A DNA stretch of 64,000 nucleotides from Antedon mediterranea (taxonomy: Eukaryota; Echinodermata; Crinoidea; Comatulida; Antedonidae): NCBI RefSeq assembly GCF_964355755.1, contig NC_092677.1, positions 26,940,101-27,004,100 on the forward strand. The letters are read 5' to 3'. Shown in pieces: positions 18,031-55,553 of the stretch. Numbering within the stretch: position 1 is the stretch's first letter; the number at the start of each line of letters is the position of its first letter. The translations under genes were made by a program, and so were the position numbers. The notes under the pieces are model-generated. The model was not told where the DNA came from. It saw only the letters and a list, made by a program, of their open reading frames with translations, and made no database searches.

Positions 18031-18034
18031 CCAA

Positions 18035-23706: not shown

Positions 23707-24413
23707 CAAACAAGGCCATATAGATGGCTGCATTCGCGTGCTCATTAGTGTTTACCGACCGACCGACCAACCTACCAACTGACCGAAATTACTGAACATG
23801 TTTAAAAATGTTGAAATGTTTAAAAACATTTATATTTTTTTAATTTACACGTGCGTAGCCTGTCACTTTTGACGTGCTCGTATAACGTAATTTCGAGTTG
23901 AAAAGTAAGTCAAGAAAACAGAAATCGGGCAAAAAGAGTGCGCAATAACATTTAACGCGCAGTGCGCGCGCAAAAATCTGCGCACTCATGGAATTTTTGT
24001 AAACGCTTAAACTTGCCTGAAACGTACTCTTATTTCATCGAAAATAAATTTTGAAAATTTTAAGCGCGCGTACGCATGCGTTACATGCGCTACGCACGTA
24101 ATTGTATTGCCATATGATGATTTATGCCCTGAAATTTATGAGTACCAAATTTTATTTAATAGTGATTCATGGTTGTGAAGATATGATTACAGACGTGATT
24201 TCGTAAAATCGTGCGTAGACCGCGTAATTTTTTATTGCGCACCGTTAAAACATAACCACATCGATTCCTGGCCATAAGGAATATACTGTGAAAAATTGAC
24301 TTAGCTAGATTAAACTGATATTGAGACAAGGTCAGAAAGCGATAAAACGCATAGTGATACCGGACCGACAGACAAACCGACAGGCAGACCGACCGACCGA
24401 CATAGTGAACTAT
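23707..24413. mobile_element. Element with GACC microsatellites at both ends and a CpG-rich core
   Basis: The left side has CCGACCGACCGACC near 23737 and the right side has GACCGACCGACCGAC near 24385. The core contains GACGTGCTCGTATAACGTAA, runs of CGCGCGTACGCATGCG type and TAAAATCGTGCGTAGACCGC. The same ordered motifs occur in the Helentron-like copies (GCTCGTATGACGTGATTTTA, AAACGCGCGTGCGCGCGTAA, AAATCGTGCGTAACTTACG), so this is a diverged relative of their interior. It separates the satellite from the right palindromic array. Confidence 0.6.
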
Positions 24414-25395
24414 AGATCCCTGTACCTATAGTACAGGGAAATTTTCGAAAAATCGCCAATTTTCGACCGTTTTATTTGTTGACATAAATGGTTACTATAG
24501 CATAATAAACATGCGCAGAGTCGAATAATGCGTTCTGCGCATGTCTATTGTGCTATAGTAACCACTTTTGACATAAATGGTTACTAGAGCATAATTAACA
24601 TGCGCAAAGTCGAATAATGCGTTCTGTGCATGTCAATTGTGCTATAGTAACCACTTTTGACATAAATGGTTACTATAGCATAATAAATATGCGCAGAGTC
24701 GAATAATGGGTTCTGCGCATGCCAATTGTGCTATAGTAATCAGTTTTATCGAAAAATAAAAAGGTCGAAAATTTGTCCTTTTTGAAAAAATCCCTGTACT
24801 ATAGTACAGGGAAATTTTCGAAAAATCGCCAATTTTCGACCTTTTTATTTGTTGACATAAATGGTTACTATAGCATAATAAACATGCGCAGAGTCGAATA
24901 ATGCGTTCTGTGCATGTCAATTGTGCTATAGTAACCACTTTTGACATAAATGGTTACTATAGCATAATAAACATGCGCAGAGTAGAATAATGGGCTCTGG
25001 GCATGTCAATTATGCTATAGTAACCACTTTTGACATAAATGGTTACTATAGCATAATAAATATGCGCAGAGTCGAATAATGGGTTCTGCGCATGCCAATT
25101 GTGCTATAGTAATCAGTTTTATCGAAAAATAAAAAGGTCGAAAACTTGTCCTTTTTGAAAAAATCCCTGTACTATAGTACAGGGAAATTTTCGAAAAATC
25201 GCCAATTTTCGACCTTTTTATTTGTTGACATAAATGGTTACTATAGCATAATAAACATGCGCAGAGTCGAATAATGCGTTCTGTGCATGTCAATTGTGCT
25301 ATAGTAACCACTTTTGACATAAATGGTTACTATAGCATAATAAACATGCGCAGAGTAGAATAATGGGCTCTGGGCATGTCAATTATGCTATAGTA
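24414..25395. repeat. Right array of interleaved palindromic repeats, with a recent 373-bp tandem duplication
   Basis: It uses the same palindromic units as the left array. Segments starting near 24642 and 25015 are nearly identical, 373 bp apart, and carry the same 101-codon minus-strand frame, which shows a recent duplication. After the array (25418-25530) a stretch with ATATATGCGCATATATGGCA and GGCAATATTATCG matches 16478-16590 just inside the left array, in the same orientation. The array ends about 270 bp from the gene A stop codon. Confidence 0.9.
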
Positions 25396-25666
25396 AATTT
25401 CCCTGTACTATAGTACCATAAATAGTTCGTATGGCTCTATAAGATAATAATAACACAATATATGCGCATATATGGCAATATTATCGCATAATTATTGAAT
25501 TTAAAAAAGTGGATTTTTATGGCAATATTTTCGGATAATTGTTGTTACTATAGCTATATTATAGTTACTATGGCTCTAAAACGCGATGAAACCTGTTATG
25601 TTTTAAAAATGATTAATAAAAATATTATATTTTATCTACATTATTTGTGATGTTGTATTATATATA

Positions 25667-28600
25667 TCAGTCATTCTTTTCTTCTTCAGTTGTTGGTATG
25701 ACTTCTAGTAGTAGCTGTACATATTTTGTGACAGTTTCTAGAATAATATAAACATAAAATGCTAGTAAGTTCGAAGGAACCAAGGAGTATTTATACAGCA
25801 ACACCCTTAAAGCTAGCTTCTCAATTGAACGCAACGCAGCGACGTACGTACGCGCAACACAAGCAATTTGACCAACCACTACGCGATAAATCACCTGAAC
25901 ACTGAGACGATTGTGATTGGTCAACTCACTTGTGTTACGCCTACTTCGTCACCCCAAGTGGGAAGTAACATTAAGGCAATAGTGATCGTGAATTGAAAAC
26001 ACTTACTCATAATTTTCGGGTGATAGCCTCGGTAAACGAACGGGTAATAGAACAAAAGTCCTGAGAGTATGAATAATGCGGCATACAGGTACTCCAAGGC
26101 GGGGTTGTCGATTATCGGTGCAAACACAAAATATACTGAACAGCAAATAACGAAAATAGGAACTCCAATTGGTACCTGGAATTCACAAAAAGAAGTTTCA
26201 TCACAAGTTAGACCATCTTGCCAATCAGAAGTTAAAATGGCGTTAATTCTCACTTCTTGAATGCATAACAACGAAACGGCGCGCAATTGAGTTAACCAAT
26301 CTCAAGCGACAATTTCGGTATCCATCGCTTCGTGATTGGTAAAATAACTTGCGGTGCGCTTACGTCATTGCGGTGCGCTTACGTCATTGCGTTGCGTAGG
26401 ATCAGGAAGCAAGCTTTATAATTTACCTTAACAGGCCTTTCTGTGTCCTTTTCTGTGACTCTGAGCACAATAAGAGCAGTCGCTGTGGCCCCGTACCAGA
26501 TCCAGGCCGAGAAGCTGAAGTAGTTGACTAACGTATCGAACTCACTCGGTATCAACATTATCATAATTATTGCTGTCTAAAAAACAAATAATAATCACAT
26601 TTTCAGACATTAGCGATTGGTTCTTACTAGAACACATCGCGAGGATGTAAGCGCAAGTGAGTTGACCAATCACGTCGCGATGCGGCGATACTAAATATTT
26701 TATCGCGTCGTGATTGATCAATTGCGTTATATCCTAGTTAGCTTTATTAATAACTATTAGCTTTAAAATAATTGTTACAAAACTATGTTAACATTTGGAA
26801 TGGAGGAAAGCAAGCTAGGCACTATGCTACATAAACGTGAATTTACGTTTACTTACTAAAAACACTAAGGCTGGAATGGGTGTTATTTTCTTAACGTGTA
26901 CCATTGACATTGCTTTCACCATGTGACCTCCTCTTGCTGTTGCAAATACAATCCTAAGAAATATTAACTCGTGAAAATAAACGGAACGTATAAAGTTCTG
27001 TCTACATTATCAAACTAGTTTGATGACCTCAAATATGGTAGTGATATACCCAAATATGGTAGGGATATGACATCATTATGTCCATATATGGGCACATCAT
27101 ATTTTGGTCACATAAAATTTGATAGTGTAGACAGATCTTAACACTGCAATGTCGAAATTCGGATCTCATAGGAAACTACTGGTTATAACAAGATCGGGAC
27201 GAAACTAAATTGCTCTATGGACATCGTTTTCCATGAATGTATTGGAGGTTAAACAAATATGGTAGTGATATACCCAAATATGGTAGTGATATACCCAAAT
27301 ATGGTAGGGATATGACATCATTATTGCAGGTTAAACAAAGTATTTTTTTTAATCGTTTTCTTCTTATGTGCAAGAAAATACCAGTTTTTCAAAATTCAAA
27401 ATACGGTATTAGAATAAGCACAGTGGGGTTACATTCGAGGTTTTGAAAGCTTGTACCTTGATGTTGAGAAGCAGTTCCCATTCGCAGCACCAAAGGTAGA
27501 CATTATAACGGACAATGGCATAATCCATGCCCACCAACCAAGAGTTCGTTCACCGAAAGTCTGTAAAATATCAATACAAATATAATATATAGGTGTGCAT
27601 ATAATGGTATTGTTTCAACAAATGATAGCTTAACGCATGCCAGACGTACTATGGGCTTGTTTTTATGAGGTGAAGTATTAAAAGCGAAGTACTTACAAAA
27701 GCGACTGCACTTGAGGCTATGAGTTCGTCAGGAGATATTACAGTTAAATAAGACAGGTTTGTCATCACATACAACAACGTGACCATTGGAATACCAATTA
27801 TTATAGATAATGGTAGATTCCTAATAAATAATATAATTTATACATTAATATAGATGACAAATGTGACAGAGTGGTGACGGGACAGTCAGGAAAGGGCTCA
27901 GAATGTTGCTCAGGGAAAATGATGATACAAGCCCCGCCTCTTTCTTTTGGTGCCCGGTTGTAAAATTGTTAATTTGTGTCAATAAATGTTGGAAAAAAAA
28001 AGTTAAATACAGAAGTCATGTCCGATAGCATGGAACTTAGTCATAGTGAGTATGAATAGGCGTGGCTTAACTTAATGATCCGAACTTTAAAGTTAGTTCA
28101 AAGTCCACATAAATGTCGACAACAACAACATGCTAATCATCAATGCTTGGGCTACAAACAACAGCAAAATAAACAATGAACAATGATTAGTTTACCTTTC
28201 GGGTCTTTGAAGTTCCTCTGTTACAAAATTAAGCTGGTTCCTAAAAGAAGAAATATATACGGTTATAAACACACTCTTTGGCGTGAAGGTGGTGGTCTAA
28301 ATCCTGCTGGATATTTCCAGGTGGGGTGGACTAATTCCTCTTGGCTATTTTCAGCGGACTGGTTTCCTATAAGGACTGGAGAATATTTCACATAATAACT
28401 TCATTAGTTTGGCCTATCCCCTTATCCCACACTTCACACATAATGGCTTTTCTTTGTCAAATTTATTCTTACCATCCCTCGTATGCCCAGAGGCCCTGAT
28501 AAAATGCTATTCCGTAGGCGAATGGACTCGTCTCAGATCCTTTAAAAGACACCGACGGATCGAGATATTCTGTGTTTCCTGAAAAATTAATAACCAACAT

Positions 28601-30900
28601 CATTATTTTTACAAATTAATATTCATCAGCATTTATACTTTGTCGCAGACTATGTCACCATATTTTAAACGTCGCGGTATTCGAAAGTTTTTAAGCCTTT
28701 AATAATAATAGTCAATTCTTATATAGCGCTCTACAAGCAAGCTTCTCTAAGCGTTGAACATTATTACCCTAGTTATTTTTTGATCAAACACGTGTGGAAA
28801 CATACTCCCATAAAGTTGTGTCTTGATCTAACCAGGTACCCATTTATACACTTGGGTGGAGAGAGAGGCAAACGTAAGTAAAGTATCTTGATTCTTGCTT
28901 AAGGATACAAGCAATGCGGCGAAAGTTGGATTCGAACCTCGGTTTCACGATCAGTCGTCCAACGTCTAACACCCTGCGCCACATGCCCTCACATCATTAT
29001 GCAAATGATGAAAGAAGAAGGCCTAGTGCCCGATACAATGCGATTCTTTCCATAATGTTTACAGAATAGAGACAATTTGTTCAAAAATTGAAACGCCAAA
29101 TTGGCGAACTTACCTTTTATCATGTTTATTAGACCGATTAGTATGATGAGAAAAAGAGCAAATAACTTGGCAGCCGTGAAAATAATCTGAATTGATGTCG
29201 CCAGTCTAGCGCTGTATCCGTTAATTATCATCAAAGTTACTGTAACACAAAAACAATAAAAAGTAATCAATTAGTTACCGGTGACGGCATGTACCCATTC
29301 ACATCGCCTAGCAAAACCCTGGAGTTTACACACATTACGGGTGAAAGGGCGTCAATTCTGGTGTGTTGATATAGCAATGTGAAGGAGTTATGTTCGTCAA
29401 CTGTGTAAGTGAGGTTCTAGACGATAATTATAAAAAACTGATGTGATGCTGATGGTATATGATGATGATAATGAAGACAATGATGATGATGATGATGATA
29501 ATGAAGACAATGATGATGATGATGATGATGATACTGAAGACAATGATGATGATGATGATGATGATGATGATACTGATGATGATGACAATGATGATGATAA
29601 TGAAGACAATGATGATGATAATGAAGACAATGATGATGATACTGATGATGATGATAATGAAGACAATGGTGATGATGATGATAATGAAGACAATGATGAT
29701 GATGATGATGATAATGAAGACAATGATGATGATGACAATGATGATGATAATGAAGACAATGATGATGATGATACTGATGATGATGATGACAATGATGATG
29801 ATAATGAAGACAATGATGATGATGATACTGATGATGATGATGACAATGATGATGATAATGAAGACAATGATGATGATGATGATACTGATGATGATGATGA
29901 CAATGATGATGATAATGAAGACAATGATGATGATACTGATGATGATGATAATAAAGACAATGATGATGATGATGATGATGACAAATGATGATGATGAAGA
30001 CAATGATGATGAAGATGATGACAATGATGATGATGACGATATACTTCATAGAAACAGTAGTATAATTGTCTTACAAACACAAGCTGCTGCCAGCAGTTTA
30101 GTTGCCAGGGCGGGCGCTGGGCAATTTTCGAAAAACGGTACAGCTACGTAGTCGGCAAATGCCAGGCTTATGAGAGCGATACTAGATGTACGAAGCACAA
30201 ATATTGCCGTCCATGAAAACAGATAAGCCCACACGTTACCATAGGTGTGCTTTAAGTAAGCGTATTCGCCTCCAGATTTAGGTATCATTGTACCCAGTTC
30301 GGCATAACAAAGAGCACCTACGGTAAAATAATTAATTCAGCAAAATTGAATTATGAATTGTTATTATTATTACTTTTTTTGTACAAAACTTTATTCTCAA
30401 GGGTTAAGTTCTGTCTACACTATCAAACTTTATGTTTAAAAAATGTGTTATGTGCCCATATATGGACACGATGATGTCATATCACTAACATTATTTGGGT
30501 ACATCAAACTTTTTTTGTCAAACTAGTTTGGTAGTGTAGACAGAGCTTTATATACAAATTATTTTTAAAGTAAACAATTTAACAATTATTTAAAAGATAT
30601 GTAATAATAATATATTATAATTATTAATATTAATATTATATTATATTATAATCCAATTAACATACCACATGTAGATATTATACCACACACGGTCCAAACA
30701 ATTATACTAGCTCCGACACTTCCCGAAGCCATCAATACACCTTTCGGAGATACGAAGATTCCCGAACCTATCATACTGCCGACGATCAAAGAGATACCGC
30801 CGATCAAAGGAATGCTTCTTTCAAGCGACACGGTTTCTTTTTGTTTTTCATCCTCAACTTTTTCCCCTTCGTTTTGACGTTTCCTTACTTCTGTCTCCAT
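25667..30900 (-). CDS. SLC7A9-like amino-acid transporter light chain (gene A), complete
   Basis: Eleven coding exons, minus strand: 30900-30666, 30317-30075, 29239-29114, 28578-28473, 28240-28196, 27820-27697, 27560-27457, 26953-26857, 26576-26427, 26175-26007 and 25737-25667 (stop at 25669-25667). All phases match, giving about 489 residues, close to the 487 of human b(0,+)AT. This is a 12-TM APC-superfamily exchanger: TM1 motif GSMIGSGIF, the [13 protein letters not shown] loop, [10 protein letters not shown] with the cysteine that in the family forms a disulfide to an SLC3 heavy chain, TM6 [19 protein letters not shown]8 FGAANGNCF, and [10 protein letters not shown]. It is closest by eye to SLC7A9, although TM6 has Glu where human SLC7A9 and gene B have Asp. 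The start METEV was chosen for its better context (G at -3 and +4) and a likely acceptor CTTTCATAG just upstream; an in-frame ATG lies at 30921. A tandem paralogue (gene B) lies upstream. Confidence 0.92.
25775..25945. mobile_element. Palindromic MITE family 2, copy in the last intron of gene A
   Basis: CpG-rich segment with GTGATTGGTCAACTCACTTG and inverted partners. Copies of the same GAGTTGACCAATCAC-type motif sit in the next two introns (26270-26405 and 26605-26735), one per intron. Boundaries are approximate. Confidence 0.55.
26270..26405. mobile_element. MITE family 2 copy in the penultimate intron of gene A
   Basis: It contains GCAATTGAGTTAACCAATCT on the left and GTGATTGGTAAAATAACTTG on the right, an inverted pair. 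A 19-bp tandem duplicate of GCGGTGCGCTTACGTCATT lies next to it at about 26351-26390. Confidence 0.55.
26605..26735. mobile_element. MITE family 2 copy in intron 8 of gene A
   Basis: It contains GCAAGTGAGTTGACCAATCA and an inverted GTGATTGATCAATTGCGTTA, with a CpG-rich centre (GTCGCGATGCGGCGAT). Confidence 0.55.
26992..27141. mobile_element. MITE family 1 copy in a gene A intron
   Basis: TAAAGTTCTGTCTACATTAT to GATAGTGTAGACAGATCTTA. A further internal fragment of the family, with the TATGGTAGTGATATACCCAA motif in three tandem repeats, lies at about 27250-27325 in the same intron. Confidence 0.85.
28697..28992 (-). mobile_element. tRNA-derived SINE, minus strand, in a gene A intron
   Basis: Read on the minus strand, the head has an A box TGGCGCAGGG (plus 28981-28972) and a perfect B box GGTTCGAATCC (28938-28928), the RNA polymerase III promoter of tRNA genes. 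The body includes GGTACCTGGTTAGATC. The tail has AGCGCTATATAAGAATTG ending in TATTATTATTA near 28697. It is a SINE and not a working tRNA, since it is about 300 bp and the cloverleaf is degenerate. A second, 5'-truncated member is at 43245-43463. Confidence 0.8.
29443..30040. repeat. Complex GAT trinucleotide microsatellite in intron 2 of gene A
   Basis: Nearly 600 bp of GAT repeats interrupted in an ordered way by GATAATGAAGACAAT and GATACTGAT blocks. This gives a higher-order period of roughly 48-60 bp. All six frames stay mostly open, giving Asp-, Met-, Ser- or His-rich pseudo-proteins. The array starts about 35 bp inside the intron from the 5' splice site of exon 2 (30074). Confidence 0.95.
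30404..30551. mobile_element. MITE family 1 copy in intron 1 of gene A
   Basis: TTAAGTTCTGTCTACACTAT to GGTAGTGTAGACAGAGCTTTA, complete, between coding exons 1 and 2. Confidence 0.88.
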
Positions 30901-34317: not shown

Positions 34318-34537
34318 AATAAAGACATAAGCAATCCTCCTCCCTCTGGTAGGCATTACATAGAAGGAAAACAAGATTAATAAAGACATAAGAAGTCAGT
34401 TTCATTTTCAGTTGCATATTGTTCATTTATATTCAATTTGTTCTCATCATTATTTATCTATGGTTTACAACATTCAGTCAATTCATTATATTATGTAATT
34501 CACAGCAAATATACACAACTCGTGACAATAATATATG

Positions 34538-34893
34538 ATATGGGATAGTATGACCTGGGATAATACGACCTGGGATAGTATGACCTGGGATAGTATGACC
34601 TGGGACAATATGACCTGGGATAGTATGACCTAGGATAATATGACCTGGGATAGTATAACCTGGGATAGTATAACCTGGGATAATATGACCTGGGACAATA
34701 TGACCTGGGACAATATGACCTGGAATAGTATGACCTGGGACAATATGACTTGGGACAATATGACTTGGGACAATATGACCTGGGACAATATGACCTGGGA
34801 TAGTATGACCTGGGATAATATGACCTGGGACAATATGACTTGGGACAATATGACCTTTGATAATATGACCTGGGACAATATGACCTGGGACGA
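34538..34893. repeat. 15-bp minisatellite
   Basis: About 24 units of ATATGACCTGGGATA with T/C and A/G variants. Because the unit is divisible by three, several frames stay open on both strands (MTWDN, ILSQV and RSYCP repeats). They are by-products of the repeat and not genes. It lies about 1.1 kb downstream of the gene B stop. Confidence 0.95.
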
Positions 34894-35974: not shown

Positions 35975-38900
35975 TTACATTTTGCCATCTTCGCCAATTT
36001 CTGGGACTTCATATGCAGACGGTGCGACTTCAAATAAGAGTTGAAAAAAGTGAGTAACTTTTCCTGCAATTAGAAAAGCAAGTAAGAATTAAAAGAGAAC
36101 TGTTTAGTAACAATGCATTCAATGTATTTATATGATCTAGCTACTAAACCATCACAAAATCTTCCTCCAAAGAAATTGCCTTAAGCTCTGTTTACACTAT
36201 TAAACTAATTTGACAAAAAAAGTGTGATGTGCCCAAATATAATAGTGATATGATGTCCATATATGGGCACATCACATGTTTTTGTCACATAGTTTTAACT
36301 GTAATAATTAATAAATCAACCAGTTGATGGTACTAAACTCAGAACCATCCAAAAGTTAACATTTTCTTTTTCTATACTCACCCATAAACTTTGGATGGTA
36401 ACGAAAATGCACAAAGGGAAAATAAAATATAAGTCCTGCGATGATGAACAGAAAAGCGTAAAGGTACGCCATCGCTGGCTCATCGATGATTGGAGCAATG
36501 ATCAAGTATACGGAACATATCAAGATGACGATAGGGATAAACAGCGGAACCTGCAAGCAAAGCAACCCAAGTGAAGTTACATACTGCTGTACAATAATGT
36601 TATTACAATGCTTTTCTATAAATGGCACTTGTCCAAGTATAACGCTCTGTCTTCACTATAAAACTAGAGTGACTAAAAAAGTGTGATGTGCCTAAATATG
36701 GTAGTGATATACCCAAATATGGTATTGATATGACATCGTCATGTCCATGGGCACATCACTTTTTTTTTGGTCACATAAAGTTTGATAGTGTAGACAGAGC
36801 TTACAGTGTTTTAAAGGTAAAGTATTTATTCTGGTCCTCAAGCTAGAAACTGAGTAAATTCAAATTTAAGCCCTCCTGGGACTCACGGCAACCAGCAGTG
36901 CAGCACCTACCAGATCAGCACACAGGGAGACAATCCCCTTCTCTTAATACTTTCTACAATACTTAATTACACTATTTACCTGTGGCGTAGTATACAGAAA
37001 ATAATGCAAGCTTTATAAGGCACTTCAACTTACTTTGATAGGACGATAAATGTCAGGTTCTCTATATCGTAGAACTAGCAGAGCAGACACGGTTCCTCCG
37101 TAGAATAACCAAGCTGAGAAACTGAAGTAGTTGACAAGCGACTCAAAGTCCCCTGGAATCAACATGATGATGGCTACCAAAGACTGTTGGCAGCAACAAT
37201 TGAGAAAGCAGTTTAAAATCACATTATAAATGATCCGTATTATTAATATTATTAATATATAAAATATCAGGAACAAAATAAAAATTCTAAACCGCCCGGT
37301 GATGTACTGAATTTATTCAATTAATTTGAAATGATAAAGATGAGTAAATCCGTGAGAATGCGAAAAAGTCGCCCCAACCAAGATTCGAAACCCGGAACCT
37401 TCTGCTTGATGTGCATATGTTATAACCATGAGACCACTGGGGCTTTCATGGTATTGTTCAAACTTGATTGGATAGCGACTCTTTTAACATTCTCAGCGTG
37501 GTACAGTGGAACAGCATTAGCACGTTCATTGTACGCACGCGCACCAGAGATCAAATTGACATGCCCTTATCTTTTCAGTATTATTACTATTAATATATAT
37601 TTTGTATGCCTATACTGATACAATTGCGCTCTAATCTTACCGTAAATACGAGAGCAGGGAAAGGTGTGTATCGTTTGACATGTACCATGGAGATGACCTC
37701 AACCATGTGACCTTCACGTGCTGCTACGTATGCCAATCTATAGCAACCAATTAGAAACATTGTTAATATTGAACATAAAGGGTCTCTCACCCAGGATCTC
37801 ATTTTGTAAAAACATCTTAGGTGAGTTTTTGATTTTCAGGAGAAATATTTTTACAATGCCAGTAAAGAGATAAAAGAAGAACAAATGTGAATGTAAAAGG
37901 TGAAGATTGTGAACAAATTAAAAATTAGTAATAAATTTGTCAGAATAAATATGTGAAATATACTGTATATAAAGAAAACGAAATATATACATATATAGTT
38001 ATCATATAATTATTACATCAAGTTAAAAAAAAACACAACATAAGAGCAAAAAAAGTGAAAATGTGTTACTTGTATTAACAAACAGCACAGTGATGTGATA
38101 ATGTTAGTTTTGTTTGAATCAAGGAAAAAAAAAAGTTCTACACAAAAGAAGTATGAATGTCTCCCTCTTGTGACCAGTTAGTGCAACAAACTTTTTTAAG
38201 GTCTGTCTACACTATCAAACTATTTTGACAAAACAAATGATGTGCCCAAATATAGTAGTGTTATGCTTAAATATGGTAGTGATATAGTAGATAGTGTAGA
38301 CAAGGCTTTATACATGTTTTAAATGACTTCGTTTCTACAGTAAATTTTAAACTACTATTAATATAAATTTTAAAGAATATTGTTAGCTTGCTTCTGTCAA
38401 AAGAAAGAAAGAGTAAAGATAATAATTATAATAATTAATAAATAAATGTTGAAACTAGAATATTCAGAAATCTAAAAATAGATCATGACAAAAGCTATAG
38501 AATACACAAAAAGTATGTTAAAATTTACAACTATATCTATCACAGGTCAAGGGTCAACCACAAATGACGGAATGCAGTTTTTGTTTACCTTCCTGATGTG
38601 AACAACGAACCATTTGTTGCACCAAAAGTGGAACAACAAACAAAAAATGGGATGATCCAAGCCATAGGGCCCAGCGTGCGGTCCGCAAACGTCTGTGGGT
38701 GATATGATGTATGTAAACGTATAAATGGTAGCGTTATTTTCATTCACATATAGCAGTATAACAAACTATTATGAAACATGCAAATAAGGTTCATTTGTCC
38801 TCATGCTAATGTCACACCAATTTTGGTTCTAATACTCACCAGCTAACATACATGTAATTGTGCATTTCACTGAAATTTTTTCCACAAAAAGTAAGATTTA

Positions 38901-41900
38901 TGAAATTTAAAATAATTTAAAATTGAATGGCGCCACCAACTGTGTTGCTTGGTTTGGTAAACTTTCTGAAATTTCCCCAAAATTCTACAAATTTGAATGT
39001 TTTTTTAAAGTTGGCAGGTCAGGTATTATATATACCAATTTTGGTGAGACATTAGTGAATAAAGTTGCCTAAATTAGTTCAGCTCTCAGCGAACACAAAA
39101 ATGAAAGAGCTGTTGCATTTTCCTTGTAACTAAAAATGCTAACTTAAAATTGCTAAATGTTATGGTACAGTACAAACATAAATCGCAATAAGTTTAAATG
39201 GAAAAAAAAAGCTGAAAAAAATAATAAAAATAACTGAAAACAAAATATACAAAATGTAAATGTCATTACTGCAGCTACTGAGGTACTGAAAGGATGGTTT
39301 CCACAATCCTGAAATATGCGTATGTAAACGTAAAACTGAATATCAATGATTTCAAAATAATGATAATTATATGTTCAAAGCACTAAATGTTTTATTATAT
39401 TAATGTATTTCTGTTGCTATGGTAAACAGCATGGTTGCTAAGAGACACAAGTAAACTATAAACGTGATGCGATATATTCTCATTGATGTATTGGTAATAT
39501 AGATCTTTTTCAGAAATGAATTGAACCCAGTTGGTATGTACTGTAGGATGGGGGACTTACTGATGTGCCACACTCCAACTGAATGTGCAAACACAAACCG
39601 TGCATTAAGCAGTGAACTATGTATGCTATGAAGATAAAATAGCATGTATGTTAGTATGAAAGGCAAGGTGAAGAAAATAATGAAAGAACAAAAGAAATGC
39701 TTTTAAGCAAAATGACAAAGCCTACACTTTCTACTGGATGGTGGTAAGTTATTTAAATTATTATAATCACTTCATAGAATGAGGTCGTTTATTCACCTCA
39801 ATACAGATGGGAATTGGACCTATCCCCTATGACCTATACCTCCCTATCAAACTAGTTTGACACAAAAAATGTGATGTGCCCAAATATGGTAGTGATATGA
39901 CATCATCATGTTTATATAATGGTCACATCACATTTTGTTGTCACATAAAGTTTGAGAGTGTAGACTTCATTAGGCCTGGATTCAGAAGAAGTAAACTTCA
40001 AAGCAAGGAGCAACAAAGTGATTTGATCAATCACAAGCGATAGATTATTTGAAGCATTATGGTTGACACTAAAATTATTAGGATTTTAAAACAGTCGAAG
40101 ATGTCAACCAATTACAGTGGGACTTAAGGTCAATGTTCATGAGAAAAACCAATGTCCCAACCTGCGTAAACGCAATTATTTATGACTTACTTTATCTATC
40201 ATGGGACAGATGATCTTTTATTTATTTATTACCATATTTAATGAGGGTGGCCTATACAGTTCCAGTGAAGGAATTAATAATTAAAGGCCCTTGATAAAAC
40301 ATACAAACATATAAAATATTAAAACCACCAAAGATTGTGTAGGCATTGTCTTTTGTTAATATGCAGTGAATTATTATACCTTCCAGATGTAAATAGAGAA
40401 CCATTACAGGCACCAAAGGTAGAACAGCATACAAATATTGGCATTATCCAGGCCATTGGCCCTAGCGTACGTTGACTGAACGTCTACAAATAGCGCATAG
40501 ATAATAATAAAGCAGTGAAGATGTATTGTCTTTATGTTGATAAGTTGTTGTTAAGTCATAATAAAGTTTGGCCAACTTGTTTATGGCTATTGAGGATTGA
40601 AAAGAGTGGCAAGTCCCAAGACAGTTGGCCATTTTGTAGAAGTGGTCAAGTCCATCCTTAAGACAGTTGACCATTCTGTAGAATGGTCAAGTACCAGCAT
40701 TAAGACAGTTGGCCATTTTGTAGAAAGTGGTCAAGCCCTAAGCCATCCTGTAGTAAGCAGACACATTGGTCAAGTCCCATCCTTTGTGAATTAAAAATAA
40801 CAATTGTTTATAAATTATCGGCTCTTATTAGGATCAAAGAAATCAAATGAAACAATTAAATCTTATTCTTAATTTATATTTATAATATTTTTGAATGATT
40901 AATAGATAATTTTAAAATAAAGACAATACATCTTTTAAATTAGAAAAGAACATGAAGTGTATACTACAAGCAGCATTCTAATAAAATTGTTAAAAACCTG
41001 ACAATCTATCATTTAAAGAAATCTATTTATAGAAAACTTGGTAACATTGATTTCACAGCTGCTGGATAAACCGGACACTACATAATTATCCAAATTTCTA
41101 TTCATAACATTTTTTTAACATCTTCAACAAACTCGTATGCATTCTTCATATGTTGGAAAATCATTTTTTTATGTACAGAATTTCAACATCTATTTTTGTA
41201 GAAACAAGGCCGACTTCACACTTTTACAGGAAATCAAGTAAGGCGGTAAGTCCACAACGACCTTCACAACTAAGTTTTTGACATTAAAAGTTTTTAATGA
41301 TAAAGCATAAATCTATGTACGTGCTATTTAAAATTAAATTCAATACCATGATAATTACTTCACATACATGCAATATAACTTTATATGTATAAGGAAAACA
41401 TGCAGTATTTAAGTATGTAAATAGGACATTAAGTATATCAGATTTGTCCTGTATGTGCTATATGTTCTCTATGGGTTTTTTATAGTCACAATTTGGATAA
41501 GATTTTACTAAAATGCTTATAGTCTGTCTGAGTTGTGGTGCGCTTAAATCCTTTATCTTTTATATCGAATTGAGTATCATTACAATTTTTTCTATCATGG
41601 TTGTACTCTAATTACTGTATTTGGATTGTAAAGGCTTTGCTAAACGGGCATGGAAAAAGAGACGGGAAAGCAACCATTGAAATGATGAAAACTTATACGC
41701 ACGTCGCTAATCATATACTGTAATCGTAAATGTCTATCGTATACTTCGCCAAAAAAAAAAAAAAAAAAAATATGGACACCACGATTATGTATATTTAAAA
41801 TGTAAAGTACAGTACAAGTGTTTATGTGTAGAAAATCAGTCATGCATATAAAAAAAACAATTGACAGGTAATTGATACAATTGAAGAAGGATGAAAGGAA

Positions 41901-44900
41901 ATCAATTTAAATTAATACACCACAAAATAAGTCAAATTATTATTTTAAATGGTAAGATAAGCTGGTGCTTTACTAAAATGTTATTACCTCTGCCAGAATG
42001 GTGACGGTTATGTGGTTGATTGCATGTTTTTGTTTCTATATTTGAATAGCAGGATTACTCAAAAAGTAATTGCCCAATTCTCATAAGATTATTTCATAGC
42101 TGTATGGCAACACATCATTTTCATATGCATAGACAGAGGTTTGCACTCTCTGAGTGCCCTTCTAGTTTATACTTGGCTAGTGCTGGCCCATTAGACCAGT
42201 ACCTCGAGAGATGGCCTAATTAACTTAATTAATTTGACAAAAAAGTGTGATGCGCCCAAATATGGTAGTGATATAACCAAATATGGTAGTGCCATGTCCA
42301 TATATGGGCACATCACAATTTGTTGTCACATAAAGTTTGATAGTGTAGCTTAACAGTGACCTGAAAGACTGCTATTGGCAGACACCCAGCAGTCATCCAT
42401 TCATAGAGAAAGTCTACATAAGGTCCACAAGACCAACTGATTTGGTATAGTGACTTTCAACATGTTTTTCTATTGGGTAATTTTTTATATTAACAAGCTG
42501 TCATTGGTAACCTAAAAACGGTGTATATAAATGCAGTCATGCATTTACAAAAACATGTCCTATATGTAATTATTCCAATCGGAACCAAGACTAATAGGAA
42601 ATTAAAGAAAATGAATAAAGTAAAAATAACGGTCAATAAATTGCAAAAACATTAATAAATAATTCAAACCATATTTGGACTTCTACTTTGACAAATCACA
42701 TATGATTGAATTTAGTGATGTGTTTAAATTTAATTTATTTTAAAAAAAAGATTTGAATTATATTATGATGATACGACGATATTGCTACTATAGGGTTAAA
42801 AGATAAGTGTTATTGGATCTTTAAAAATTCATTTGTGATAAATATTAATACTATACGTATAAAATTAATAAAATATGAAATTAATGATCAGTAAATGTAA
42901 TAAAAATATTATTTAAATTAATTATTAGTCATATAACTAACAATAAAGACTTTCACAAAAATTATAAAAAAATAGAATATTAAATATATTAAACAAAATA
43001 CTATAAATAATATAGTATTAATAAAAATATTACGTACCACAGCGACTGCTCCAGAGGCCAAGAGCTCATCAGGTGACATCACTGTGAAGTACGATATATT
43101 GACCAATAGGTATAGAATGGTCACTAACGGTATACCAATCATGATGGCCCGAGGAAGATTTCTAAAAAAAAAGAGGAGTTTCATAGGAAAACCAAAACAT
43201 GAATCAATGTTAAACAATAACATCTCACAGGTATATATTCCTTAGAATATTGATCGTGGGTTCGAAGCCAATGCTTGTCGCATTGCTTGCATCCGTAGGC
43301 CAGTGTACAAATGGGTACCTTGTAATTTTGCGCTGATTACTAGCTGCATTATGGGAGTATGTTTTCATACTGGTTTGACAAAAAAATGAACGTGGTATTA
43401 AATGTACAGCGCTTGGAAGTTCACAGCTTAGGCGCTTTATAAATCCAGGATATTATTATTAGGGTATTGCTATGCACTAATAGCAGTGCAATGCTATCGT
43501 GCATGAAATTAGTAAACTTACGTATGAGGTTTAATAAGCTCTTCAGTGATGTAGTTCAGTTGATTCCTATACAAAATTACAACAAAATTGTTAAATTATT
43601 TATTATTACTTAATAACTTTAAAACACACAGGATTTTGAATAGGGCATAAGCACACTTGATCAATCATATTTAGAGAAGTTTAAGGAGAAAGGGATGGGG
43701 AAGAAGATAGCCATACAATATCACATTGAGTGAGGTTTAGGGGGAGTGGGGAAGATTGTAATACAATACATTATACCAAACGTCAACATTTAGGTGTTTG
43801 ACCTAAATAAGTGAACAACTGAATTTGTTAAGGACCAACTTCTTCTAATACAATTAGCAATTTGAATATGGAGTAGATATGGCTTTAGCAAGGGTAAACA
43901 TCTAGTTTGTTCATATCCAAGTGAACTGTTTGAATTTGTTAGATTAGGAGATACTATTTACTTAGTTTACTATTATCAGTCTTAATCAATTTATGATTTA
44001 CCAGCCATCATATGCCCAAAGTCCTTGATAAAACGCCACACCGTAGGCAAACAGATCTGTTGCAGAGCCATCGAATGACACTGACAATTTTAAGTACTGT
44101 GTATTTCCTGAAATAAAAAAAAAATTAATTGTAATACTGTAATTTATTTATTTAAAAACAGGATAAAACCATATGAGATATAGATGTAGCACCTGTTTTA
44201 CATATGGTCCTGTTTTTAGCAAATAAAATGTGAAAAACATGCATAAAAACTGTTTAAAACTTGCTAAAAATAGTAACAATAGACAAAAAAATATAATTTA
44301 TTAAATAACAATGATAAGTATACTGAAGTGTATTGAACTTGATGATCTGCTAGTTAACTTAGTGATTTGCTAGTTAACTTAGTGATCTGCTAGTTAACTT
44401 TGTGATCTGCTAGTTAACTTAGTGATCTGCTAGTTAACTTGATGATCTGCTAGTTAACTTAGTGATTTGCTAGTTAACTTAGTGATCTGCTAGTTAACTT
44501 TGTGATCTGCTAGTTAACTTAGTGATCTGCTAGTTAACTTAGTGATCTGCTAGTTAACTTAGTGATCTGCTAGTTAACTTTGTGATCTGCTAGTTAACTT
44601 AGTGATCTGCTAGTTAACTTAGTGATCTGCTAGTTAACTTAGTGATCTGCTAGTTAACTTAGTGATCTACTAGTTAACTTAGTGATCTGCTAGTTAATAA
44701 AATAAGGTTAGTTACAAAATAAGTTACCAAAGGCTACAATCAGTATTCCTAGGTTTTGCAAAAGTTTATCAATTATTTAATCATTTTCAATTATATCCGT
44801 ATTCCGTTTAAAAAACAAAATTGTTCTACCCTTTTCTTTACCCTGGACATATGCCATACATTTCAAATTAAATTCTATAATCGGTATTGTATTCACAATC

Positions 44901-47900
44901 TTTATAAATAGTAAAGCAAGCAGAAACCACAATATCAATAAATGGTTCAATTCCAGGGACCTTTTTAATTGTCAAACTTCTGTCATGGAAGGTAACATAT
45001 TATATTTTGTCACCAAGAACCAGACATTTCCGTTGTTCAACTCCTTGGGGACAAATATTGTAATCAAATCTGGCTACTAATAAGCTAACTTTTTGGGAGT
45101 GTGATATAAAGTGGAGCACAACAATAATAATAATCCATAACAGTTTAGGCTTATATCGAACATTATATGTAAATATCTTTCCATTGGTGGACTGACAGAA
45201 GTTACTTTCTTATAAGATATAAAGTAAAATGAAATTATAAAAAATAAAAAAAAACAAATTTACCTTGACATATTTTAACAAATCCTACCAAGATGATGAT
45301 AACTAATGCCAATAGCTTGGCAGCCGTAAAGAAGTTTTGAACAGATGTTGCCCATTTCACACTGGCGCAGTTCACAAACACTATCATTACTGAAAATAAA
45401 GAAGTAAAGTTTATGGTTAGAATATTATAAGTTTGAATTGTCGATTAAACATCATAGCTAACTGTTAATGTCAATGCACTGCATTAGCATTTAGCTAAGT
45501 CACATGTTCATTAGGTTCAATCTCTCTAATCATTATTAACATTTCAATCATCTTTTTTCCTTCTGTTTCTCCTAACTTTTCATGCAGTTATCTTTATCAT
45601 TAGGTCATTTATGTGGCCCAAGACTGACCAACAATTTTATCAATATCTTAGTTCTGATTTTTTTTTGGTCATTTAAATCAACTAAAGTAAAATTTCCTCC
45701 AGGTAGACTTTGATTTTTTAATTGAAGTATGTGCGCAACATAACAATTTATTGTATGGCCTCATCACAATCTTCAATGTAAAAATCATCATCTTTAGCTG
45801 AATTTAACATTCTTACCATGATTGTCATCATAGTCATAATTCAATTCAATTCTGGTTTATTAAGAATCTAAGTGGCATTGCAGAAAAATATGAATTGCGC
45901 CAAAATTAACATTATAATATAAAAAGTATAACAAAATATAAAATCAAATTCAAATTCCATAATAAAATAATGTTTTTATTTTTGAAAAATGCAATGTGGT
46001 GAAAAAATGATGCATACTTACGTATACAGAGGGCGGCAAACAACTTAACCGCCAAAGTTGGGGGTTCACAATCGTCAGGAAAAAATGGGTCGGCAATGTA
46101 CGCGCCGAAGCTGAGAGCGATGGCAGCGACGGATGAAGGTTTCAATACCATGATTGATGTCCATGAAAACAAGTAAGCAGGGATCGGTCCAAGTGTCTCG
46201 TATAGGTATACATACTCGCCACCCGACTTTGTTATGATAGTGCCCAGTTCGGCGTAACATAACGCACCTAATTATAAATGGATGAATGGTATGAAAATGA
46301 AATATATGAGTATAAAATGTTGCTGAAATTGTTGATTTTACTCAATCTCTACAGTGAAAAATAATGGTTAATGGTTTTAAATTTGTAAGCACACAAAAGT
46401 GATTCACAGTCAACTTTAAAAAATCTACACCACCTTCGTTCCCATCCACAATTATTGCAATTTGACAAGTCAGGTTTTTTAACCGACAATTTCTAAAAGT
46501 AGACGCTGGCTCCTTTGCCAAAAATCTAGGTTAGAGTATTTTGAAGAATTCACTGTTTAAAACCAACTGAAGACAATGAAAGAATGTGTTGGCTGACACA
46601 TTGATAGTTTGATAGTGAGTATGTGGAAAATGGTATTTAACATGGGTAAGATGCAGTATAAGATGATACTACCACATAAACCCTTTAACTCACTGATACA
46701 AACAGACCCCATTAGTTTAATACAGAGAGCTGGTGGTGGACATTCATCAGAGAAGAAAGGCTGCGCCACGTAACTAGCAAAGGACAGACTGATGATGGCG
46801 ACAGACGAGGGTTTAAGGATGAGCATTGACACCCATCCGAATAAGAAAGCCCACACATCGTGGAATGTGTATCTAAGGTATGTGTATTCGCCGCCTGACT
46901 TGGGGATCATTGTTCCAAGTTCTGCGTAACAGAGTGCTCCTAATGTTAGAGAAAAAGAGTAAATATCTAAAGCCTCTCTACATAGCAAGGAAAAAAATTA
47001 TTTTTAATTATACAGTAATATTATATATTGGAAGTGTGTATTGTATTGTAGGTGAAAATATAAAAAAAATTAAAATTAATAATTAAACATTACACTGTTA
47101 CATTACATGATGATGTGTTGTTCTCCAAAACATGAAAACTAATAAAATGATTACATTTATACAAATGTTTACATTTAACAAGTAATCCAGCATCTCCCAG
47201 CCAACCAGCTTCCGGTTGAATGATTTTTCTTTTAGATTAAAATTTTATGAGGTAAATATTTGTTTGCCGATTCATTTTTTGCTGTCAAAGTGAATCTATA
47301 TGTGACAAAACCTTTTCCTGTTCCTACCTTCAGATAAATCTAATTTGTTTGCAACATATACAATACTTTAACTGAATGGACACACTTTTCTACTTTAGGC
47401 ATCTCAGAAGATCATGCCGCATCAGAACTGGTATATACCAGTTTTGATTATAGCCATTTCCACCATTATTTCCCCCAGTAAATTAATGTTGTCATAAAAT
47501 CAAATGATTGATTATGTTTTTTTTTCTTCTAAATATAAAATGCATAAAGTATTAAATTCTTAAGCCTGTCAGTCTTATATTATTATCGATATATTACAAA
47601 TCGATTGAAAATAATTATTGCCCTAAAAAACGGAAATTCTTCGTATAAAATGATTTATACTAGACATTGTAGTGAGCCGAAATATCGAGGAAACAATAAA
47701 ATTCTGTGTGAAGATGTTATAATACAGTTTTGTATAGAAACAAAACAACTGATCTAATTATGAATTTCTACCTACACACTATACACCTGGTGGTAGTGAA
47801 TTAGGCCTACACCATGCTGCCATTAATGATAGCTGTCTGTGACATTCCAATCACGTAGTCTAGCTATGTTTTGCTATGCTATTTGTAACTTGTTCAATTT

Positions 47901-48582
47901 CATTTAATTAAAAATGTATTGTCCTCCAAAAACATAAAAAATGAAGATTAATTAAATCAGACTTTGAATTATTTTTGTAGTTTTAATAAAGTTAATCACT
48001 TCCATAGGAAAAATGTTTTCACTTATAAAATGACAAAATAAATGGTAAAATTCAACGAAAAATCCATTGGATTGCCAGCCAATTTGACTATTTTTTGCTT
48101 TAAATTACAGTTGTTTCAGGTAAATACAGTTTTTTTCGATCCAATTTTTGGTCAAAATGGATAACTATTAAGTAACATTAAAATGGCATATTTCAAGGGG
48201 AAAATACATCTTTAATTTACAGCTTCAGTCTTTAAATAAAACTAAAAAGACAGAGAACCTAAGAGGTACATGCTGAATTAAATGTCATACATGGAAATGA
48301 TGTTTTTATAATGCATAGCTTACCAAACATTGATATTATACCACATAACAACCAGATGATCAAACTCATTCCAACACTCTCCGTCTGTCTTAGTACGCCC
48401 TTTGGTGAAACAAAGATCCCAGACCCGATCATGGTACCGACGATGAGAGCAATACCGCTCACAAGGCTTACTTGACGTTTAAGTCCGACCTTTTCACCGG
48501 GGTCATCTTCTAATGCCAATTTACTCTTGTCTATTCCATTTTCTTCTTTGTGCGGAACTTCTCGTTCTCGTAATTCCGCCAT
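35975..48582 (-). CDS. SLC7A9-like amino-acid transporter light chain (gene B), complete, with duplicated exons 2 and 7
   Basis: Minus-strand coding exons: 1, 48582-48324; 2a, 46939-46694; 2b, 46267-46022; 3, 45389-45264; 4, 44107-44002; 5, 43566-43522; 6, 43161-43038; 7a, 40483-40380; 7b, 38692-38589; 8, 37737-37641; 9, 37183-37034; 10, 36550-36382; 11, 36063-35975 (stop 35977-35975). With one exon 2 and one exon 7 the product has about 504 residues. Internal exon lengths and phases equal those of gene A (126, 106, 45, 124, 104, 97, 150, 169); only exon 2 differs slightly, 246 against 243. Motifs: GTMIGSGIF in TM1, extracellular cysteine in FF-x3-[18 protein letters not shown] in TM6 (identical to human SLC7A9 as remembered), [10 protein letters not shown]. 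In the known family this is a Na-independent exchanger that needs an SLC3 partner. An in-frame TGA directly precedes the ATG, and an acceptor (TTTTCCTCAG, exon edge 48608) shows that a 5' untranslated exon lies upstream. Confidence 0.92.
36181..36302. mobile_element. MITE family 1 copy in the last intron of gene B
   Basis: Left end TTAAGCTCTGTTTACACTAT is present. The right terminal repeat has decayed after GGTCACATAG-like sequence near 36295. Confidence 0.75.
36642..36803. mobile_element. MITE family 1 copy in intron 9 of gene B
   Basis: AACGCTCTGTCTTCACTATA to GATAGTGTAGACAGAGCTTA; complete but with several substitutions in the left end. Confidence 0.85.
37365..37445 (-). mobile_element. 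tRNA-like head of a SINE or a tRNA pseudogene, minus strand
   Basis: On the minus strand CAGTGGTCTCATGGTTATAA is followed about 30 nt later by CCGGGTTTCGAATCTTGG, which resembles an A box and a B box. The arms do not form a convincing cloverleaf, so a working tRNA gene is unlikely. Confidence 0.45.
38197..38310. mobile_element. MITE family 1 copy in a gene B intron
   Basis: Short copy, AAGGTCTGTCTACACTATCA to GATAGTGTAGACAAGGCTTTA, with only the left half of the usual centre. It lies between exon 7b and exon 8. Confidence 0.82.
38589..38692 (-). CDS. Gene B alternative exon 7b
   Basis: 104 bp with the same phases. It encodes [18 protein letters not shown] followed by [16 protein letters not shown]. 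It differs from 7a at five of 34 residues, while most third codon positions differ, so both copies have been kept under protein-level selection. Including both copies, or neither, would shift the frame. Confidence 0.88.
39836..39972. mobile_element. MITE family 1 copy between exons 7a and 7b of gene B
   Basis: The centre is intact (ATGTGATGTGCCCAAATATG, GGTCACATCACATTTTG). The left outer end is reduced to CCTATCAAACTAGTTTGAC. Confidence 0.75.
40380..40483 (-). CDS. Gene B alternative exon 7a
   Basis: 104 bp, phase 0 to phase 2, with TTTGTAG acceptor and GTATAA donor. It encodes TM8: [18 protein letters not shown] followed by [16 protein letters not shown]. Its donor (GTATAA) is weaker than that of 7b (GTAAAC). 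It joins exon 6 and exon 8 in frame. Confidence 0.88.
40600..40775. repeat. Short tandem repeat, ~40-bp unit, in a gene B intron
   Basis: About four imperfect units containing AAGACAGTTGGCCATTTTGT and GTGGTCAAGTCC, starting about 120 bp upstream of exon 7a on the minus strand. Confidence 0.75.
42228..42353. mobile_element. MITE family 1 copy in intron 6 of gene B
   Basis: The left outer end is lost (begins AATTTGACAAAAAAGTGTG). The right side ends AAAGTTTGATAGTGTAGCTT with the AGACAG part deleted. Confidence 0.75.
43245..43463 (+). mobile_element. tRNA-derived SINE, 5' truncated
   Basis: It shares CGCATTGCTTGCATCC and the GTTCGAAGCC B-box region with the SINE at 28697-28992. It ends AGGCGCTTTATAAATCC followed by an ATTATTATT tail. 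It is plus strand, in gene B intron 5, and the A box is missing. Confidence 0.65.
44345..44697. repeat. 20-bp minisatellite in intron 3 of gene B
   Basis: About 17-18 tandem units of GATCTGCTAGTTAACTTAGT with few variants (TTTGTGATC, GATGATC). The first and second runs of variants repeat in the same order, so larger blocks were duplicated. Confidence 0.95.
45838..45890 (-). mobile_element. 3' tail of a retroposon, minus strand
   Basis: On the minus strand GCAATGCCACTTAGATTCTT is followed by AATAAACCAGAATTGAATTG, the same tail type as at 11860-11985. Only the end is recognisable. Confidence 0.4.
46022..46267 (-). CDS. Gene B alternative exon 2b
   Basis: Also exactly 246 bp and phase 1 at both sides, with a GTAAGT donor. 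It encodes [18 protein letters not shown], then [10 protein letters not shown], which matches human SLC7A9 at this place, and the cysteine loop [11 protein letters not shown]. By hand count it shares about 49 of 81 residues with exon 2a. The intron between the two copies is 426 bp. Confidence 0.88.
46694..46939 (-). CDS. Gene B alternative exon 2a
   Basis: 246 bp, starts after an AG and ends before GTGAGT, phase 1 at both sides. It encodes [18 protein letters not shown], then a TM3 with [11 protein letters not shown], and the heavy-chain cysteine loop [11 protein letters not shown]. It resembles gene A exon 2 ([10 protein letters not shown]) more than exon 2b does. It joins exon 1 (Gly codon) and exon 3 (Ile codon) in frame. 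Confidence 0.88.
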
Positions 48583-55076: not shown

Positions 55077-55553
55077 TCATTTTGCTAATAATATGGTTGC
55101 CTTGTATTTTTGGTAAATGTGAAATAAATGATTATAATTAAGTAATTGTTTTTTGATTTTGCAACTAAATATGTACCACTTTGTAATTAAAATTAAAATG
55201 TTTGCATCACTGTGTGTTTTTCCAAAACCAAAACATATACTTTCTTTGGTGATAATTAAGTTATTGTTGATATTTCGATACATATATTGTTTTACATTTT
55301 CCCAAATGTTCTTTACCAGATCACATTCAAAGAACATATGTAGCAGTGTTTCCTGCTTTTCCTTGCAAAAACTACACATTGGTGAATCGACCTTTGACAT
55401 CTTAAAGAGCATTGTATTTGTATAAATTATACGATGAATAAATTTAAATTGAACATTTTTTAGCTTAGTGTCATTTGTACAGGCGTGTAAATTTGAGAAA
55501 AGGTTTTTCCAATTAAGTTTGTTGTCAAACTCCTTTTCCCATTTGGTAAACAT
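55077..55553 (-). mobile_element. LINE fragment coding for an RT-associated zinc-binding C-terminus (zf-RVT type)
   Basis: A 158-codon minus-strand frame is the best preserved transposon coding piece in the window. It has KNVQFKFIHRIIYTNTMLFK, then CSFCKEKQETLLHMFFECDL, the C-x2-C...H-x4-C pattern of the domain that follows reverse transcriptase in L1/Tx1-like LINEs. No reverse-transcriptase core is found upstream (higher coordinates), so it is a truncated copy. Confidence 0.8.

Follow-up and report, generated by a model that had tools for sequence, protein, structure and literature searches.

Two tandem exon pairs, probably mutually exclusive, in a b0,+AT-like SLC7 gene of the crinoid Antedon mediterranea

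We analysed a 64,000-nucleotide stretch of the genome of the crinoid Antedon mediterranea (C8:26940101-27004100; the genome comprises 354 Mb in 18 contigs), referred to below as the window. Gene B lies in the window on the minus strand (48582-35975) and, judged by its sequence, is an SLC7 heteromeric light-chain gene of the b0,+AT-like (SLC7A9-like) type. Two of its exons are present as tandem homologous copies, designated 2a/2b and 7a/7b. We infer with good confidence that these are mutually exclusive exons, that is, that all copies are used and that the two members of a pair exclude one another; a functional effect of the choice is plausible.

The 11-exon model of gene B was built from the reading frame, splice sites and homology (Table 1). 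All duplicated exons are open and flanked by GT-AG splice sites, the model joins stop-free with 7a or with 7b, and the spliced product has 504 residues with any choice of alternative exons. Because there are two in-phase pairs, four isoforms of this length can be encoded. When the 2a/7a isoform was used as the query, the top PDB matches were b0,+AT chains (7nf6, E 4e-165; 6li9; 6yup), and consensus xCT, LAT2, y+LAT, LAT1 and Asc-1 ranked behind them. A seven-row family tree, made from the exons other than 2 and 7, placed gene B in a clade (support 98/97) with two paralogs, gene A in the window and gene C (locus L001), which lies about 120 kb from gene B and has the same exon order. This clade joined human b0,+AT (100/100) as against LAT2, consensus xCT and a further crinoid gene, gene D; the order in which genes A, B and C split was not settled by this tree. 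A cysteine in extracellular loop 2 is present in exons 2a and 2b and in genes A and C, at or beside the place aligned with the heavy-chain disulfide, and is the putative site of that bond in gene B. Pairing with an rBAT-type heavy chain and exchange of cystine and cationic amino acids are predicted for the gene B product.

Table 1 Exons of gene B and position of the neighbouring paralog in the window.
Feature	Position in the window	Strand	Basis or remark
Gene B exon 1 (coding part from ATG)	48324..48582	-	Gene model; aligns with b0,+AT N-terminal part
Gene B exon 2a, 246 bp, phase 1 to 1	46694..46939	-	Gene model; 49/81 residues identical to 2b
Gene B exon 2b, 246 bp, phase 1 to 1	46022..46267	-	Gene model; groups with gene C exon 2
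Gene B exon 3	45264..45389	-	Gene model
Gene B exon 4	44002..44107	-	Gene model; AYDGW stretch aligns with b0,+AT Asp233
Gene B exon 5	43522..43566	-	Gene model
Gene B exon 6	43038..43161	-	Gene model
Gene B exon 7a, 104 bp, phase 0 to 2	40380..40483	-	Gene model, profile scan, substitution counts
Gene B exon 7b, 104 bp, phase 0 to 2	38589..38692	-	Gene model, profile scan, substitution counts
Gene B exon 8	37641..37737	-	Gene model
Gene B exon 9	37034..37183	-	Gene model
Gene B exon 10	36382..36550	-	Gene model
Gene B exon 11 including stop codon	35975..36063	-	Gene model
Gene A, neighbouring paralog	25667..30900	-	One exon 2 (30075-30317), one exon 7 (27457-27560)

Exon 7 is predicted to encode the last part of extracellular loop 4 together with the greater part of transmembrane helix 8 (TM8), with helix limits set by homology, and it ends just past the FGA[C/T]NGSLFTSG stretch. 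The initial annotation of this DNA had pointed out the two copies, and its description of them agreed with our data. Both are 104 bp long, begin with a complete codon and end with the first two bases of a split one (AG|). Each has an AG acceptor and a GT donor, and their translations differ in five of 34 residues, the exchanges being S/A, Q/D, M/I, I/F and C/T. At the nucleotide level they differ at 28 of 104 positions, 21 of which are third positions. The statement that most codons of the same meaning differ silently held narrowly, for 16 of 29, the other 13 being identical. Nei-Gojobori counts gave 18.9 synonymous differences over 24.8 sites and 9.1 replacement differences over 77.2 sites, corresponding to proportions of 0.76 (pS) and 0.118 (pN). 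About 19 of the 28 differences are synonymous, against about seven expected (binomial P 1.4e-6). Silent sites are saturated and replacement sites are not; therefore, both copies are old and constrained, in line with the long coexistence under purifying selection proposed before. Compared with exon 7 of gene C, 7a has a pN of 0.19 and a pS of 0.68, and 7b a pN of 0.105 and a pS of 0.76. Thus, each copy is constrained on its own.

Inclusion of both copies or of neither breaks the frame, as had been claimed. The resulting stop comes after 375 residues with both and after 309 residues with neither, and lies 405 nt and 395 nt, respectively, before the last exon junction. Nonsense-mediated decay is expected for stops at such distances upstream of the last junction. 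The wider claim that only one copy per transcript works is upheld for exon 7 by this frame argument; it does not carry over to exon 2, whose copies are multiples of three in length. Premature stops also raise the question of whether the gene is down-regulated by a poison or decoy exon, a role that one member of the exon 7 pair (or of the exon 2 pair) would play while the other alone makes protein. The stop caused by joining 7a to 7b would suit such a role, and the acceptor of 7b is the weakest of the set scored below. A poison exon need not keep its protein sequence, yet replacement changes are far below silent changes in both copies; moreover, each exon 7 copy alone restores the full frame, and the explanation is inapplicable to the in-frame exon 2 pair. 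We consider a poison exon very improbable.

Tandem paralogs occur in this region, with genes A and B in the window and gene C nearby, and the extra copies could be left over from a tandemly duplicated gene or result from an assembly error. In searches at E up to 0.1, no exon of gene B besides 2 and 7 gave a second match within the gene; between exons 6 and 8, exon 7 alone is repeated, and exon 8 is single. Neither a third copy of exon 7 nor relics of other exons nearby were found in the window at this threshold or in the profile scan. The copies of exon 7 are therefore not parts of separate genes with their own flanking exons, a possibility that the initial annotation had itself raised. With differences at more than a quarter of their bases (28 of 104), they are no assembly duplicates, and gene D, 15 Mb off on the same contig, has the same arrangement. 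A remnant or artefact is accordingly the least credible of the explanations considered.

Exon 2, which by homology would encode the TM2-TM3 stretch and extracellular loop 2, forms the second in-phase pair of gene B. Its copies differ in 32 of 81 residues (pS 0.77, pN 0.305). Common to 2a and 2b are the LKPSSVA stretch, aligned with the segment of b0,+AT that contains TM3 Thr123, and the loop-2 cysteine, aligned with b0,+AT Cys144; TM3 residues nearby and the loop differ. The best genome match of 2a outside gene B was exon 2 of gene A (60%), which is also nearest to 2a by path and identity in a 15-row tree of exon 2. The two were not united in the best tree, and forcing them together cost only 0.07. 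Forcing 2a with 2b cost 8.7 log-likelihood units (p-AU from the approximately unbiased test, 0.052). Exon 2b grouped with gene C exon 2 (91/86, not starred) and weakly with vertebrate b0,+AT (71/85). This pattern hints, without proof, that the exon 2 duplication may be as old as the gene duplications, with genes A and C each keeping one form.

A genome search with exon 7b gave matches at 16 places (E up to 1), two of them close together at C8:11.543 Mb. These two belong to gene D (C8:11537970-11558057, minus strand). The model of gene D has exons 1 and 2 fused and runs through exon 10, the last exon not being located, and its frame is closest to xCT (consensus-mutated 7ccs, E 2e-161; human 7p9u, E 3e-147). 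Gene D has two 104-bp copies of exon 7, D7a and D7b, both with GT-AG sites and with a 57-nt intron between them. They differ in four of 34 residues (pS 0.83, pN 0.093). Two of these differences lie at the start of the exon, and a Ser/Cys difference lies at position 29, the site of Asc-1 Tyr333 and xCT Gly334 (the latter assigned from the alignment with xCT, with numbering from the paper).

We scanned 21 loci (L001-L021) and the window for exon 7, covering LAT-type genes that form part of the genome's set. Eight of 30 rows were dropped, all of them with E above 1, under 8 bits and without splice sites at the predicted ends. The remaining 22 exon-7 copies are distributed over 20 LAT-type genes, and two copies are present only in genes B and D. 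AG and GT were found at the predicted ends in 18 of the 22 copies, the four without them being at L013, L015, L016 and L017; the copy at L018, among the 18, matches the first 22 positions only and then meets a stop. No exon-7 copy was found at L003, L020 or L021. By position, L003 is a further piece of gene D and L020 of the L013 gene. In a separate scan of 28 loci outside the window, with exons 5 and 11 undetected at the cut-off and many loci holding partial genes, no exon was present twice (E up to 1e-3) besides exon 7 of gene D.

At L015:8156-8280 (minus strand), exon 7 is longer and differs in its N-terminal stretch. It probably belongs to the same gene as the exon 2 at L024, which groups with gene D (99/93).

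The tree of exon 7 was built from 34 columns for 20 rows, few columns for that many rows. In it, D7a and D7b group together with support (98/96). A shared ancestral duplication for genes B and D was rejected, with p-AU 5e-6 for uniting B7a with D7a and 1e-8 for B7b with D7b. Since these clades are rejected, the two duplications look independent. Gene conversion could mimic such a pattern; recent conversion is unlikely because the silent sites are saturated.

Splice sites were scored by position-weight comparison with the exons of genes A-D, which is a crude method. The six duplicated exons scored lower in summed splice sites than 32 other internal exons (one-sided Mann-Whitney P 0.0036). Similarly low scores (8.0 to 9.9, compared with 6.7 to 15.1 for the duplicated exons) were obtained for exon 9 of gene B and for exon 8 in genes B, C and D. 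The inner sites of gene B are its weaker ones: the donors of 2a and 7a outscored 4 and 3 of the 36 comparison donors, and among the 34 comparison acceptors, 3 scored below that of 2b and none below that of 7b. The inner sites of gene D are strong (31/36, 26/34) and its outer sites weak (acceptor 4/34, donor 0/36). As a lead from six exons, this suggests that gene B may deter joining by weak inner sites together with the frameshift, and that gene D may rely on its short intron. Judged by eye for U12/U2 incompatibility, the donors look U2-type. Human clusters with a donor-to-branch-point distance under 50 bp are classed as potential steric interference (PMC5740500), and the 57-nt intron of gene D would fit this class.

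Pairing of inverted repeats in the introns of gene B was considered as a switch and was not supported: of nine pairs, the best long one lies in a dispersed element, and most of the others are A/T-rich. This intron comparison revealed no regulatory sequence. It is conceivable that both copies of an exon are functional but neither exclusive nor regulated, yielding fixed mixtures without physiological meaning. That no regulatory element was identified, and that the one strong inverted pair sits in a dispersed repeat, would agree with this. That two genes have long kept both copies under constraint points instead to distinct roles, and we hold fixed mixtures to be improbable.

The dispersed element is about 115-140 bp long and has inverted ends, TCTGTCTACACTATCAAACT. 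Examples lie at window positions 2471-2604, 4317-4441, 26997-27135 and 30410-30544. The end sequence has 22 matches in the window with up to 3 mismatches, against 0.01 expected. The element also occurs in introns of gene B and, by eye, at paralog loci, and looks like a miniature inverted-repeat transposon.

We then considered what the exchanged segments would do in the protein. In LAT-type transporters, the substrate side chain is described as directed mainly to TM3, TM6, TM8 and TM10, and Cys335 and Ser342 of LAT1 were modelled as counterparts of TM8 Trp293 of AdiC (PMC8399266). TM8 of xCT is unwound at Gly334 and uses Ser330, and b0,+AT also has an unwound TM8 segment, with a bigger pocket (PMC8654953). 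The substrate range of Asc-1 is set by Tyr333 in TM8 (PMC10998858). On the extracellular side of b0,+AT, loop 2 is disulfide-bonded to rBAT, and segments EL4a and EL4b of extracellular loop 4 contact the ectodomain of rBAT and cover the gate as a lid (PMC9110406). Given these roles of loops 2 and 4, each of the two exon pairs in gene B would affect the pocket, the lid and the interface with the partner.

Exon choice might mainly alter heavy-chain partnering or surface assembly and not substrate choice. The loop of the heavy-chain disulfide is encoded by exon 2, and the start of exon 7 falls in loop 4; both loops are at the interface with rBAT (PMC9110406). Two of the five differences between 7a and 7b (positions 3 and 4) and two of the four between D7a and D7b fall at the start of exon 7, which in gene B would lie ahead of TM8, and the 32 differing residues of 2a and 2b would also accord with altered partnering. 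Of the other 7a/7b differences, those at positions 14 and 16 are placed in the outer half of TM8, and the Cys/Thr difference at position 26 one helical turn from position 29, both placements following from the predicted helix. Against partnering as the main effect, the loop-2 cysteine is present in both 2a and 2b, and the gene D pair also alters the TM8 selectivity site, inside the pocket. We regard this explanation as unlikely, though a more serious one than those above.

For mutually exclusive exons, the reading that we prefer, the evidence is as follows. Both pairs of gene B consist of adjacent homologous exons of matching length and phase. Joint inclusion of the exon 7 copies would be excluded by frame, with the 57-nt intron as an additional obstacle in gene D; for the exon 2 copies, frame gives no such obstacle. 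Phase, length, splice sites, constraint and fit to the frame together make this the best reading, as the initial annotation had proposed, with exclusivity itself as the part that we deduce. Each transcript of gene B would take one of 2a/2b and one of 7a/7b. Wrong combinations of exon 7 would be removed by frameshift and nonsense-mediated decay, perhaps assisted by the weak inner splice sites, and in gene D the short intron would sterically hinder joining of D7a to D7b. The choice most likely tunes substrate preference, affinity or gating, and the TM1/TM6 site and the TM6 aspartate would stay unchanged whichever exons are chosen.

Four observations weigh against this reading. Joining 2a to 2b, or skipping both, keeps the frame, as 246 is a multiple of three; therefore, exclusivity of exon 2 must come from splicing itself or from protein folding. 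Positions 22, 25 and 29 of exon 7, which face the pocket in TM8, are identical in 7a and 7b; thus, a change of selectivity is less direct in gene B than in gene D. None of the 34 comparison acceptors scored as low as that of 7b, and none of the 36 comparison donors as low as that of D7b; these could be poorly used exons. Finally, B7a and B7b stand apart on the exon 7 tree, with 7b nearer to gene C exon 7 and human b0,+AT; uniting them was not rejected (p-AU 0.196).

More tentatively, the TM8 exon might be an exchangeable selectivity cassette gained independently by two SLC7 light-chain genes. The Ser/Cys difference of gene D would then lie at the site that sets the range in Asc-1, xCT, GkApcT and AdiC. 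Gene B would add a TM3/loop-2 cassette, giving four isoforms in which the pocket walls are chosen separately, perhaps with a coordinated, tissue-specific pairing of exons 2 and 7. We put this forward as a possibility that is somewhat doubtful.

Several other features of the window were noted. Gene A has an exon order identical to that of gene B, and exons 3-10 are equal in length. Its intron 2 contains a 600-bp three-base repeat of the TGA type (29439-30040), open in several frames, and a 15-bp repeat of about 24 copies, open in two frames, lies between genes A and B (34533-34890). Directly past the stop of gene B (35973-35720, minus strand), one reading frame holds two similar 13-residue stretches, DWLNATHFRVAYR and DWLEATHFRVAFR. 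They differ mostly at third positions, and each is followed by a donor-like AG|GT in the same phase; possibly they are another duplicated exon pair. The region had no Pfam match and no credible PDB match (best E 0.19), and a 63-residue query from it matched no other place in the genome (E up to 1).

At 12614-12779 (plus strand), a 55-bp unit comprising a polypyrimidine tract, a 3' splice site and an exon start is repeated three times, the middle copy being without the AG. The exon there presumably encodes the C-terminal part of a SORL1-like receptor, and the repeats could give alternative acceptors. Long tandem-repeat arrays with units of 89, 98 and about 475 bp occupy 16573-25396. A frame of 175 residues at 55077-55604 (minus strand) resembles, by eye, the zinc-binding end of a long interspersed nuclear element (LINE) reverse transcriptase.

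Heteromeric amino-acid transporters matter for cystinuria, cancer and drug delivery, and the sequence basis of their substrate range is unsettled. Natural, constrained exchange of TM8 and of TM3/loop 2 within an otherwise constant protein in effect provides ready-made chimeras, and the four isoforms of gene B and two of gene D could show what the exchanged segments do. The independent duplication of the same exon in two paralogs marks TM8 as a part worth varying.

Among known systems, b0,+AT (SLC7A9) is the closest solved relative of gene B across nearly the full length, and gene B shares its Asp233 stretch and loop-2 cysteine (Cys144). To our knowledge, no second exon 2 or exon 7 occurs in vertebrate SLC7A9. 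In NKCC2 (SLC12A1), exon 4 encodes TM2 and tunes ion affinity. NKCC2 is a cation-chloride cotransporter, and it differs from gene B in family, in the helix concerned and in having one cluster, not two. The likeness is that of a transporter with tandem homologous exons, and a third mutually exclusive exon of SLC12A1 is mentioned in PMC9741552. The same source describes tandem duplication of exons as uncommon, with 236 events in human, as ancient in most cases and as frequently convergent, especially among ion transport genes; gene names with 'SLC7A' do not appear in its main text. Lengths not divisible by three are reported for 60% of human clusters (PMC5740500), and genes B and D would follow frame and steric rules as set out there.

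The nearest precedent is in the SLC7 family itself. CAT-branch transporters work without a heavy chain. The initial annotation knew of no described choice of a TM8 exon in SLC7 genes, and here it needs correction, as CAT-2A/CAT-2B of SLC7A2 touches TM8 (PMC7584565); for the LAT type, we found no mutually exclusive exons, TM8 exons included, in the literature at title and abstract level, which is weak evidence of absence. CAT-2A/CAT-2B and the predicted exons 6a/6b of zebrafish slc7a1a vary a region that starts halfway through TM8 and ends halfway through TM9, and the CAT-2 splice forms are one of low and one of high affinity (PMC7584565). SLC7A2 and gene B share the SLC7 family, the amino acid-polyamine-organocation (APC) fold and alternative splicing of a short stretch beside the substrate path. 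The stretch varied in CAT-2, a transporter of the CAT branch, is not the one exchanged in gene B, which belongs to the LAT branch and, with helix limits from homology, duplicates the preceding exon and has the exon 2 pair in addition. What appears new here is the choice of an exon encoding most of TM8 in the LAT branch, the second cassette, and the independent repeat in a paralog, by which the idea of CAT-2A/2B would be extended to the other branch of SLC7.

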